From NCBI RefSeq assembly GCF_024449025.1, contig NZ_JAHLKM010000003.1, positions 1 to 64,000 of the forward strand: a stretch of 64,000 nt of DNA. The letters are read 5' to 3'. This DNA comes from Natronomonas aquatica (GTDB taxonomy: Archaea; Halobacteriota; Halobacteria; Halobacteriales; Haloarculaceae). Below, in pieces: positions 6,603 to 10,056 of this stretch (its first letter is position 1; each line of letters starts with the position of its first letter). The notes beneath the pieces were generated by a model that worked only from the letters and a program-made list of their open reading frames with translations, was not told the origin of the DNA and did no database searches. A program made the translations under genes and the position numbers.

Positions 6603-6631
6603 ACAAAGTATTCTTTGTATACAAATACTTC
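6603..6631 (-). promoter_or_regulatory. overlapping palindromic operator/promoter of the TA pair
   Basis: Directly upstream of the antitoxin ATG lie TACAAAG (6603-6609), CTTTGTA (6614-6620) and TACAAA (6621-6626). The first two form an inverted repeat with a 4-base spacer; 6615-6626 is a perfect 12-bp palindrome; AAGTATT (6607-6613) and AATACTT (6625-6631) make a third, outer inverted repeat. The A/T-rich core also serves as the likely TATA region. The layout suits cooperative binding of RHH dimers. Confidence 0.7.
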
Positions 6632-6789
6632 GGTATCGTTACCGGGATCGTCGCCCGGATTCGGGCGGATGTCGCGGATCGAGATCGAATGTCGAACCGA
6701 TTTGGTCTGGGGTTCCTCGGACCACGTGAGAAACGAACCGACTCTGTCACTGCTATATACGTCATCTGTCGAATCTACCATCGACAAAA

Positions 6790-6797
6790 ACATATAC
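6790..6797 (+). promoter_or_regulatory. TATA box for HMG-CoA synthase
   Basis: ACATATAC is centred about 26 bases before the ATG at 6820, the spacing of a leaderless archaeal promoter. Confidence 0.6.
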
Positions 6798-6819
6798 TCC
6801 CTTCGCGACCTTTCCGACC

Positions 6820-8157
6820 ATGACAGGCGTCGGCATCGACGGCATCGAGATTCATACGGGCAAACTCAGACTCGATCTCGCTGAGACGTTCGCCCCCGAG
6901 ATGGGTGACGCCCCCGAAAAGTACACCAAGGGGCTCGGACTGCACGCCAGTTCCTTCCCGGACACCTACGAGGACATCGTCACGATGGGCGCCAACGCGG
7001 CCCACCGGCTGATGAAGCGAAAGGGGCTCGAACCCGACGATATCGGCCGGATCGATGTCGCGACCGAGTCGGCGTTCGATCACTCCAAGCCGGTCTCGAC
7101 GTACATCGGCGGCTGTCTCGAGCAGGTCTTCGACGGCGATCTGCACCACGCCAACAAGGGCGAACGGAAGTTCGCCTGCGTGGCGGGTACCCAGAGCATC
7201 GACGACGCGTACAACTGGATCAAGGCCGGACGCAACCGTGGCCGGGCGGCGCTCGTCGTCGCGACCGACACGGCGCTGTACGCCCGCGACGACCCCGGCG
7301 AGGCGACCCAGGGCGCCGGTGCGGTGGCGATGCTGATCGACGAGGACCCGGATCTCGTCGAACTCTCGACCGAACAGGGATACGGTTCGGCCGACGAGAC
7401 CGACTTCCTGAAGCCTCAACAGCAGTTCCCCAGCGTCGACGGCAAGCGCTCGGTGAACGTCTATCTCGCCCGGATGCGCGAGGCGCTCGTCGACTACGAG
7501 CAGGTCGGCGGGAAGATCCACGCCGAGGACTTCCGGCTCGGACCCTTCCACACGCCGTTCCCGGGGATGGTTCGGAAGGCGGGCGTCCTCGCGTACAGAC
7601 ACATCACCCGCGATACGGACATCGAGGACGAACTCGCCGAGGAGATCGGCCGCCAGCCCCGTTCCGAGGCGTTCGAGGACGACGAGGCCTACATGGAGGC
7701 GCTCTCTGAGTACACCGACGCGCTGAAGGACACCGAACGGTACCGGGAGTGGTACGAGCGGACGATCGATCCGACGCTGGATCTCTCCAGACGCGTCGGC
7801 AACTGGTACACCGGATCGGTCCACGTCGCCCGCGTCTCCGGGCTGAAATCGCTCGCGGAGGCCGGCGAGGACGCCGTCGGCAAGCGGCTGCTCGTCGGCT
7901 CCTACGGCTCGGGGGCCCAGGCCGAGATCCACGTCGAGACGGTCCAGGAGAACTGGCTCGAGGAGATCGACGCGCTGAACATCGACGAACAGCTCGCGTC
8001 CCGCTACGAACTATCCTTCGAGGAGTACGAGGACGTCCACGACGCCCACAACTACGACGAGGAGTCCGCCGTCGAGGAGTTCACGACACCCGACGCCGAG
8101 TTCGCCTTCGACGGCTGGGGTCGGATGGGCGAGCGGAAGTACCGGTTCGTGGAGTAG
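6820..8157 (+). CDS. hmgB: hydroxymethylglutaryl-CoA synthase
   Basis: A 445-residue enzyme condensing acetyl-CoA with acetoacetyl-CoA to HMG-CoA, the first committed step of the mevalonate route to archaeal lipids and carotenoids. Visible features are ATESAFDHSKP with the active-site Glu, KFACVAGTQSIDDA with the acyl-accepting Cys, FHTPFPGMVRKA with the catalytic His, and NWYTGSVHVARVSGL, all typical of this thiolase-superfamily enzyme. Length matches eukaryote-like haloarchaeal synthases. Cytoplasmic. It stands alone; other mevalonate genes in the window (idi, mvaD) are in separate units. Confidence 0.95.
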   Translation: MTGVGIDGIEIHTGKLRLDLAETFAPEMGDAPEKYTKGLGLHASSFPDTYEDIVTMGANAAHRLMKRKGLEPDDIGRIDVATESAFDHSKPVSTYIGGCLEQVFDGDLHHANKGERKFACVAGTQSIDDAYNWIKAGRNRGRAALVVATDTALYARDDPGEATQGAGAVAMLIDEDPDLVELSTEQGYGSADETDFLKPQQQFPSVDGKRSVNVYLARMREALVDYEQVGGKIHAEDFRLGPFHTPFPGMVRKAGVLAYRHITRDTDIEDELAEEIGRQPRSEAFEDDEAYMEALSEYTDALKDTERYREWYERTIDPTLDLSRRVGNWYTGSVHVARVSGLKSLAEAGEDAVGKRLLVGSYGSGAQAEIHVETVQENWLEEIDALNIDEQLASRYELSFEEYEDVHDAHNYDEESAVEEFTTPDAEFAFDGWGRMGERKYRFVE

Positions 8158-8349
8158 CGAGGCTGAGCGAACGCGAAGCCTCGAGGATAACGAGCGGCGA
8201 ACAGCGTGAGCCGTGAGGTAGCGAGGACGACCGCAGGGAGTCCTCGAAAACCTCGAGCGGGGAGCGGGGGCGACCCGCGAGAGAGCGAGGCTGAGCGAAC
8301 GCGAAGCCTCGGAACCGACGAACGGCGAAGGAATGAACCGCGAGAAACC
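8158..8349. repeat. three 64-bp units, each with paired stem-loops
   Basis: Between the HMG-CoA synthase stop and the rhodopsin remnant, seven-base stems recur at exactly 64-bp spacing: CGAGGCT/AGCCTCG (8158-8183), CGAGGAC/GTCCTCG (8222-8246), CGAGGCT/AGCCTCG (8286-8311). Units 1 and 3 share 28 identical bases (8156-8183 and 8284-8311). A second GC-rich inverted repeat sits in the rest of each unit (for example GCGGG/CCCGC in unit 2). No open frame is convincing here. It may act in transcription termination or be a degenerate haloarchaeal intergenic repeat. Confidence 0.7.
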
Positions 8350-8376
8350 GCAGAACGTTCCCTCCGCGGTTCCCCG

Positions 8377-8960
8377 TCAGTCGTCGACTGCCGGCGTCCG
8401 GTCCGTGGTGTTCATCATCGCGCCCGTCTCCGTGCCCGCCAGCGAGACGCCGAACTCCGAGCGGAGTGTGGCGCTCGCATCGAGGGCGATCAAGCCGAAC
8501 CCGACCTCCGTCACCAGATCGAGGTACGTGATGAGCGCGATGTCGATCGTCGGTATCAGCAGGTTCAGTCCCGGCGGCCCGAGTATCCAGATCAACGGAT
8601 AGATCGACCAAAGCACCGCCGTCAGGTTCCGGAGTCGCACGTACAGTTTCTCGATGCAGTCCGTCTCTCGATGCGGTCCGTCTTTCCCCTGACACGGCGC
8701 GCCATCGGTCCGTAGAGGTAACACAGGAGTCCGACGAACGCGACCGGACCGATCCCGAACAGCGCGAAGCGCTCGATCCCGGCCAACAGCCACAGAAACA
8801 GCACGATGAGCGGCGTCGTGGGGATCCGGTCGATGTACCGGGGAATGAACACCGTCCGCTCCCCGACGGTGTACCCTCAGATTCCAAACGACACGATCCC
8901 GCAGACGACGGCCCCGAAGACCGCCGTTATCGCGCCCACGAAAGCGAACACCGAAACGGC
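8377..8960 (-). pseudogene. decayed sensory rhodopsin II-type gene
   Basis: Helices B-G of a haloarchaeal sensory rhodopsin II are recognisable across two reading frames. Helix B (about 8950-8880) is followed by an in-frame TGA (8877-8879), then GERTVFIPRYIDR-IPTTPLIV (helix C), a junction LLAG-IERFALFG where helix D (about 28 residues) is missing, helix E to GPMARRVRGKTD, a frameshift, then EKLYVRLRNLTAVLWSIYPL (helix F) and YLDLVTEVGFGLIALDA (helix G). Helix A and the start are absent; carA abuts. The retinal Lys of LVTKVGFG is Glu (codon 8506-8508). No transducer (htr) gene is adjacent. Comparison is from memory of the Natronomonas pharaonis protein. Confidence 0.88.
8649..8682. repeat. 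17-bp tandem duplication inside the rhodopsin remnant
   Basis: Two 17-base copies (8649-8665 and 8666-8682) of TCTCGATGC(A/G)GTCCGTC differ at one base. Removing one copy joins the helix E frame (GPMARRVRGKTD) to the helix F frame (CIEKLYVRLRN) and restores 13 residues between GPM and LYVRL, the same number as in Natronomonas sensory rhodopsin II. Confidence 0.85.
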
Positions 8961-8997
8961 CGGAAATCCGGCTCGATGGCGGAAAAATCCGCAACTC

Positions 8998-10056
8998 TCA
9001 GTGCTCGGCCGACGGCGGATCGGCCAGCGCGAGCACGTCGTCGAAGAACCCGAGCGTGTCGTGGGGGCCGGGGTTGGCCTCCGGGTGATACTGTCGGGTG
9101 ATGATCTCCAGTTCGTCGCTCTCGAGGCCCTCGGGGGTGTCGTCGTTGACGTTGATCTGGGTGACCTCGAGGTCGCCCGGCTCGGCGACCGTGTACCCGT
9201 GGTTCTGGGTCGTCATGACGACCTTGTTCGAGCGCAGATCCCGGACCGGCTGGTTGACGCCGCGGTGGCCGAACTCCATCTTCTCGGTCTCGCCGCCGAG
9301 GGCGTTGGCGATGACCTGCTGGCCGAGACAGATCCCCGCCAACGGCGTGTCGCCGACGTACTCCTCGACGAGCGCCGCCGCGGCCTCGAAGTTCTCGGGA
9401 TCGCCGGGGCCGTTCGAGATGAAAAGCACGTCCGGATCGACCGCCTCGACGTCCGCGACGGTCGCGTCGTAGGGGACCACCTCGACGGTCGCGTCCCGCT
9501 CGACGAGCGAACTGGCGATCGAGCCCTTCGCGCCGCAGTCGATCAGCGCGACCGTCGGCCCGTCGCCGTCGGGGTTGTAGGTGACCGACTCCTCGATCGA
9601 GACCCGCGAGCCGATGTCGGTGTGGTCGCTCATCGCCTTGCAGGCGTCGAGTTCGACCTCGGCGTCGGCGGCGGTCGCGTCGGGGCCGGCGGCGATGCCG
9701 CACTTCATCGCGCCCTGCTCTCGAATCGAAGTCACGAGATCGCGGGTGTCGAGTTCGTCGACGGCGGGGACGCCCTCGTTTTCGAGCCACTCGGCGACGT
9801 CCTCGGTCAGATCCCGGGCGACGACGCCCCGTGGGTGGACGCGGTCGGACTCGAAGCGCTCCTCCCGCACGCCGTAGTTGCCGATCAGCGGGTACGAGAA
9901 GGTGAGAATCTGCTCCTCGTAGCTGGGGTCGGTGAGCGATTCCTCGTAGCCGGTGTAGGCCGTGGTGAACACCAGCTCGCCGCGAGTGCGACCGGGGGCG
10001 CGGGCGCGGGCCTCGACGACCCGCCCGTCCTCCAGCGCCACGTAGGCGTCCGTCAT
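8998..10056 (-). CDS. carA: carbamoyl-phosphate synthase small subunit
   Basis: A 352-residue glutamine amidotransferase subunit that supplies ammonia to CarB for carbamoyl phosphate (pyrimidine and arginine synthesis). The N-terminal CPSase domain (FTTAYTGYEESLTDPSYEEQ, IGNYGV) is followed by a class I amidotransferase domain from about residue 165: FISNGPGDPE, LAGICLGQQVIA with the nucleophilic Cys, and RQYHPEANPGP with the catalytic His-Glu. Complete and of usual length. carB is not in the window. Its stop codon is about 40 bases from the rhodopsin remnant; it is divergent from idi. Confidence 0.96.
   Translation of the reverse strand: MTDAYVALEDGRVVEARARAPGRTRGELVFTTAYTGYEESLTDPSYEEQILTFSYPLIGNYGVREERFESDRVHPRGVVARDLTEDVAEWLENEGVPAVDELDTRDLVTSIREQGAMKCGIAAGPDATAADAEVELDACKAMSDHTDIGSRVSIEESVTYNPDGDGPTVALIDCGAKGSIASSLVERDATVEVVPYDATVADVEAVDPDVLFISNGPGDPENFEAAAALVEEYVGDTPLAGICLGQQVIANALGGETEKMEFGHRGVNQPVRDLRSNKVVMTTQNHGYTVAEPGDLEVTQINVNDDTPEGLESDELEIITRQYHPEANPGPHDTLGFFDDVLALADPPSAEH

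Follow-up and report, generated by a model that had tools for sequence, protein, structure and literature searches.

What remains of the sensory rhodopsin II (SRII) gene of Natronomonas aquatica, and what was lost along with it? The SRII-HtrII pair of Natronomonas pharaonis serves as a model for light reception in archaea, with the HtrII transducer consisting of two membrane helices, a HAMP domain and a signalling domain. This system has been reviewed (PMC3274258), the opsins of three Natronomonas species have been listed (PMC7232251), the sensory rhodopsin of N. pharaonis is NP_4834A (PMC4500146) and a sensory rhodopsin has been reported in N. moolapensis (PMC3623002). The window, i.e., the whole stretch of DNA that was analysed, comprises 64,000 nucleotides of a contig of 185,701 bases belonging to an N. 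aquatica assembly (3.21 Mb, 82 contigs, 99.4% complete). An earlier note, made from the letters of this stretch, had described a decaying SRII gene at 8377 to 8960. Our analyses indicate that a slightly shorter interval, 8377 to 8948, is very probably what is left of an htrII-sopII gene pair. The pair was likely broken recently and at this very locus, and no working photoreceptor is predicted from it. The lesions counted in this reading are two or more deletions together with a 17-bp tandem duplication and point changes.

Results

The remnant is located between two intact genes. Upstream is carA (8998 to 10056, minus strand), an open reading frame of 352 amino acids that we take to encode the small subunit of carbamoyl-phosphate synthase, and downstream is a convergent gene (6820 to 8157, plus strand) whose product is presumably hydroxymethylglutaryl-CoA synthase-like and which is here named hmgB. 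The N. pharaonis genome (G006) has carA, htrII (534 amino acids), sopII (239 amino acids) and convergent hmgB in this order, with both sensor genes being full length and the sopII product being 100% identical to N. pharaonis SRII. The order and strands of carA, remnant and hmgB in the window are those of this intact locus. All 20 genomes of the genus, including that of N. aquatica itself, contained a carA match (79 to 100% identity; three matches were partial), and hmgB was also present in 20 of 20. The two matches were 92 to 6,463 bases apart in 13 genomes, the gap being overstated for two of these (G012 and G016) with one partial match each. A fourteenth genome (G018) had a carA-hmgB distance of ∼1.8 kb with hmgB split across two contigs; in two genomes (G003 and G005) the genes were hundreds of kilobases apart on a single contig, and in four others they were on separate contigs. 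The carA match of G019 (L042; G019:C32:12800-13843) contained one internal TAG. A transducer gene was found directly upstream of sopII, on the same strand, in 12 of the 12 named genomes of an SRII scan and in N. pharaonis, and carA was not matched within up to 6 kb on either side of sopII in those 12 named genomes; the carA address is hence, as far as seen, a Natronomonas trait.

Translation of the minus strand of 8300 to 9100 in three frames detected SRII pieces in order, over two frames, between 8377 and 8948. Helices F and G (8377 to 8658) are encoded by 93 open codons up to the stop codon, in a frame that matched Pfam Bac_rhodopsin with an E value of 4.5e-16 and, among PDB entries, N. pharaonis SRII with 6e-34 as compared to just 2e-11 for bacteriorhodopsins. 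The helix C-E frame (8670 to 8876) matched N. pharaonis SRII with 8e-16 and the next kind of protein with 1e-4. This second match came in two stretches, residues 63 to 100 and 117 to 149, and hence bracketed a loss of helix D, which was placed by alignment at a junction between 8777 and 8778 and amounts to exactly 28 codons (N. pharaonis residues 93 to 120). On one side of this junction are the B-C loop and helix C (8778 to 8876, minus strand; translation and PDB match), in which the equivalents of Arg72 and Asp75 are kept, Arg replaces the invariant Trp76 (8826 to 8828) and Pro replaces Leu78 (8820 to 8822). On the other side are helix E and the start of the E-F loop (8684 to 8777, minus strand; PDB match). 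The frame is shifted between helices E and F by a 17-bp tandem duplication (8650 to 8683, minus strand), the copies of which, 8683 to 8667 and 8666 to 8650, differ by one mismatch; no other tandem 17-mers with at least 16 matches were detected in the 64 kb. Translation and nucleotide register put an in-frame TGA (8877 to 8879, minus strand) at the place of SRII residue 59, and a Glu codon (8506 to 8508) occupies the position of the retinal-binding Lys205. The earlier note had listed the TGA, a loss of about 28 residues over helix D, a frameshift, the Glu codon and the retained and altered helix C residues other than Leu78, and had likened the remaining motifs to Natronomonas SRII; all of these observations were reproduced by the translations and the Pfam and PDB searches. 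A short helix F-G peptide could still be produced from the open frame.

The segment preceding the TGA had been read in the note as helix B, an assignment which, in contrast to those of helices C, E, F and G, largely did not stand, as 8948 to ∼8910 is htrII. The end of SRII helix B is confined to some ten codons immediately ahead of the TGA (8880 to 8909, minus strand). The preceding ∼39 bp (8910 to 8948, minus strand) correspond to htrII codons 26 to ∼38, presumably the first membrane helix of the transducer. Thus, 39 of 50 nucleotides of 8948 to 8899 were identical to htrII from codon 26, as compared to 30 of 50 for the runner-up on both strands of a 19-kb stretch of N. pharaonis, and tblastn detected the stub with 60% identity over 20 amino acids (E value of 0.006). 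The best single breakpoint was at ∼8909, with near-equal fits between 8892 and 8913, and accounted for 80 of 117 positions versus 54 if all were htrII or 60 if all were sopII. Before the breakpoint, 32 of 42 positions agreed with htrII and 12 with sopII; after it, 48 of 75 agreed with sopII and 22 with htrII. As both registers are codon-true, the stub continues in frame into the last part of helix B.

Given the order of genes in N. pharaonis, a single deletion of ∼1.6 kb (1,637 bp in N. pharaonis coordinates) likely removed most of htrII together with helix A. The helix A and start codon reported missing by the note would have gone in the same deletion as nearly all of the transducer gene. The htrII and sopII sequences of N. 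pharaonis at the breakpoint are alike at 11 of 15 nucleotides, a level reached by 101 of 20,000 random htrII-by-sopII registers. The ends of the helix D deletion, tested for a short repeat in N. pharaonis DNA, agreed at 8 of 15 nucleotides, which was equalled or bettered by 3,808 of 20,000 random pairs; hence, a single slippage mechanism common to both deletions lacks support. Between the carA stop codon and the stub is a spacer of 49 bp (8949 to 8997, minus strand), the N. pharaonis equivalent of which is 209 bp and contains the htrII leader, start and first 25 codons, indicating that the leader and start were also lost. A small palindrome-like sequence, CCGGATTTCCGG, was spotted by eye in this spacer. 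With codons ∼26 to 38 being all that is left of htrII, the locus no longer encodes a complete HtrII transducer.

The best match of the remnant among retinal proteins was SRII, and in a tree of helices F and G it was placed inside an SRII clade with 96% ultrafast bootstrap, making it an SRII by descent. The nearest intact protein was P0018 (77 to 80% identity over helices F-G), and identity to the N. pharaonis protein over this segment was 71%. The age of the breakage was estimated from 126 codons aligned with N. pharaonis sopII, in which there were 21, 13 and 56 differences at first, second and third positions, corresponding to a pN/pS of 0.30 without error bars. For the same pair of genomes, carA and hmgB gave lower values of 0.19 and 0.17, respectively. 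When compared with four other intact SRIIs, N. pharaonis sopII had values of 0.48, 0.41, 0.35 and 0.49 and the remnant had values of 0.51, 0.49, 0.49 and 0.52, exceeding those of N. pharaonis in four of four pairs. The higher values, which carry no error bars, are at most a weak sign of relaxed selection and are not taken as proof of decay. The terminal branch of the remnant (0.066) was the 20th shortest of 69 in the helix F-G tree, which excludes helix C, the site of two of the three odd residues. As the pN/pS is near that of intact SRIIs and the branch is short, most of the changes in this short sequence appear to date from when the gene still worked, and breakage was probably recent.

Of the 20 genus genomes, one has an intact SRII of the N. 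pharaonis type and one has a remnant; no such gene was found in the other 18, several of which are incomplete. Searches of whole genomes with helices F-G detected opsins in 14 of 20, but outside N. aquatica and N. pharaonis (71%) no match in these genomes exceeded 44% identity; the opsins of G018, G019 and G007 had an SRII as best reference at just 27 to 41% identity. Within the family, 105 of 146 genomes matched P0018 at an E value of 1e-30 or better and, among the matches listed, identity above 50% was observed only for N. pharaonis (68%) and the remnant. Weak opsin matches of 34 to 43 bits (G007:C1:164391-165002 and 2284904-2285515; G006:C1:846682-847275 and 2563245-2563868) are possibly lysine-less opsin-related proteins, and two opsin pieces in neighbouring matches (profile positions 4 to 145 and 187 to 222) at G012:C3:60519-61099 perhaps represent another broken opsin. 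The patchiness of SRII would fit with the pair having come from another lineage, already broken, when the carA-hmgB stretch was exchanged. Haloarchaea exchange DNA freely, and N. aquatica and N. pharaonis were not sisters in a carA-plus-hmgB tree of 17 of the 20 genomes, in which several supports were modest. Vertical descent, however, agrees with the gene order and, given the short branch and low pN/pS, little time can have passed since breakage, so that an imported wreck is considered unlikely and breakage in place is preferred.

In a draft genome of 82 contigs, known here from its assembly alone, an intact pair might look broken because of errors made in sequencing or assembly. The lesions are, however, of at least five unlike kinds, including a loss of ∼1.6 kb with a clean in-frame junction, and the flanking carA and hmgB are intact. 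Furthermore, a cluster of helix F-G proteins with the same short frame, P0001 (87 amino acids, 100% identical; four member sequences clustered at 90% identity), was present on three shorter contigs of up to 7,860 bases, although these contigs may share a source sample. Errors are thus a highly improbable source of the lesions, which we regard as genuine changes in the N. aquatica gene pair. P0001, which is of the window's own kind, was one of six matches in a search of the protein collection for truncated SRIIs (P0001, P0002, P0087, P0088, P0089 and P0090). P0088 has 50 amino acids and 80% identity to P0019; P0087, P0089 and P0090 are closest to P0066 and P0070, which are 49 to 50% identical to N. 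pharaonis SRII.

Comparison with intact SRIIs was performed on 76 of 84 sequences, the 8 most distant being excluded and columns with fewer than 60 letters being left uncounted. The remnant breaks 2 of 21 invariant columns, Trp76 and Lys205, the lysine being invariant among those of the 76 aligned intact SRIIs that have a letter there; in a leave-one-out analysis, 74 of the intact SRIIs broke no invariant column and 2 broke one. At a 95% conservation level the remnant breaks 3 of 28 columns, but so few do not distinguish it, since five of the 76 intact SRIIs break 3 or 4. A working SRII has seven helices in one open frame, the helix G lysine and an adjacent HtrII gene; in the remnant, helices A and D are gone together with the greater part of helix B, the frame is interrupted by the TGA and the frame change, the lysine is replaced and ∼39 bp of htrII remain.

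The 93 open codons of helices F-G and the breakage of just 2 of 21 invariant columns across all the pieces might also be expected of a surviving retinal-free opsin, or of a short protein of helices F-G that has taken on a new role. Of the opsin homologs in the haloarchaeal family examined in PMC4915679, nearly 30% are lysine-less; these are, however, proposed there to be functional with their signalling residues kept, and the remnant differs from the lysine-less groups in keeping Trp178. Lysine-less opsin-related proteins have an open opsin frame, whereas that of the remnant is cut by the TGA and the frame change, and the transducer is missing, as are helices A and D. Survival in a new role is therefore highly improbable. 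Tandem duplications can revert, and the 17-bp duplication could be imagined as a phase-variable frame switch turning the gene reversibly off, but reversion would leave the TGA, two deletions, the htrII loss and the loss of the lysine codon, which reduces the probability of such a switch to almost nothing. The locus is, on the evidence of its lesions, a predicted pseudogene, presumably without expression or function.

The genome was searched for other opsins and transducers, as the earlier note had advised. Five Pfam Bac_rhodopsin matches were obtained: the sopII remnant, another opsin fragment, a sensory type accompanied by a transducer, and presumed bacteriorhodopsin and halorhodopsin types. 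None of these five is an intact SRII proper. Seven matches to HtrII were rejected as intact copies, the best two being 39% and 43% identical over parts of the protein. The sensory-type pair, on contig C67, consists of a transducer (510 amino acids) and a rhodopsin (241 amino acids), both open and overlapping by one base; the rhodopsin, a putative SRI, had as its best PDB match an entry named Rhodopsin, Chemotaxis protein. Archaellin genes gave six matches in the genome (such genes are present in 11 of 20 genus genomes) and a cheA-type gene gave one. The note's reading that phototaxis through this receptor appears to have been lost is supported. Given the open C67 pair, the archaellin genes and the cheA-type match, this need not mean a loss of all light sensing, and the cell probably retains light-guided movement by way of a different receptor. 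The opsin fragment other than the remnant (L037:6577-7101; G000:C4:6577-7101) has an open frame of 160 amino acids (6619 to 7101) matching roughly helices D-G, is closest to cruxrhodopsin-3 (E value of 9e-31) and keeps the retinal lysine; no helices A-C were seen upstream, and an intact bacteriorhodopsin-type gene is 3 kb away.

A further sopII remnant was detected in P0002, a protein of 139 amino acids from a Natronomonas metagenome-assembled genome. Residues 40 to 139 align with residues 140 to 239 of intact SRIIs, such as P0012, and the first ∼36 residues read like an out-of-frame carA 3′ end, the best match of this start being at the carA 3′ end in six of the six genus genomes tried (E values of 2e-10 to 4e-7); the sopII remnant is thus just behind the end of carA. 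Like the window remnant, P0002 represents a sopII piece behind carA; its frame contains neither htrII nor any of the sopII sequence that precedes residue 140. Unlike the window remnant, it keeps the retinal lysine and shows no duplication in the protein alignment; Trp178 and Phe208 are replaced. It belongs to another SRII clade (97% ultrafast bootstrap versus 96% for the clade of the window). These other lesions and the other clade indicate that P0002 is likely to be a separate loss. A search of viral contigs with P0002 gave 45 pattern matches and no relative.

A profile search for remnants downstream of carA in the 20 genomes (∼1.4 to 1.5 kb in each, 378 bases for G011, and a stretch ending inside htrII for G006) gave clear matches only in N. 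aquatica and, for a different opsin, in G005; weak matches in G014, G006 and G009 had E values of 2.6 or worse. The G005 match (L071:7377-10163) is an open sensory-type rhodopsin of 246 amino acids by carA, on the other strand, with 66% identity to that of C67. Its transducer frame has just 224 amino acids, with the main HtrII match starting at residue 345, and the pair adjoins a gene that by eye resembles a tyrosine recombinase.

Discussion

The history of the locus can be proposed as follows. A deletion of ∼1.64 kb, perhaps between short similar htrII and sopII sequences, would have taken all of htrII from codon ∼39 onwards as well as the first ∼48 codons of sopII, the htrII leader and start being removed by a further loss. 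With the transducer gone, the rest of sopII would have been free to decay, light-guided movement likely being kept via the other transducer-rhodopsin pair. The event is of an ordinary kind, a pseudogene, but is unusually legible: the steps of loss can still be read, and the transducer went together with the receptor. That a further wreck, likely of separate origin, is found at this position allows one to ask when and why Natronomonas lineages drop SRII. More speculatively, photosensor pairs may be gained and lost repeatedly in the carA-hmgB gap, SRII-HtrII having disappeared from it two or more times through deletions of different kinds, in one case with an in-frame fusion of transducer helix and receptor left as a fossil, and another sensory-rhodopsin type being found beside carA in G005; lineages would then swap a blue-light-escape sensor for another light sensor. 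This is a tentative suggestion that we hold to be possible but doubtful.

No comparable remnant was reported in the literature covered, in part, on sensory rhodopsin loss or pseudogenes in haloarchaea and Natronomonas. N. pharaonis has been described as having lost bacteriorhodopsin, and Haloquadratum walsbyi sensory rhodopsin, in a species-specific manner (PMC4500146). Both these cases and the one in the window are opsin gene losses in haloarchaea, but the former are given as plain absences, whereas the wreck in the window is still readable. The remnant resembles the lysine-less opsin-related proteins of PMC4915679 in that the retinal lysine is replaced; those are treated there as functional, whereas the remnant is cut and without helices A and D. 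The closest known system is the htrII-sopII locus of N. pharaonis, with carA before it and convergent hmgB behind it in the same order and on the same strands as in the window, but with both genes at full length, where N. aquatica has an htrII stub and a broken sopII.
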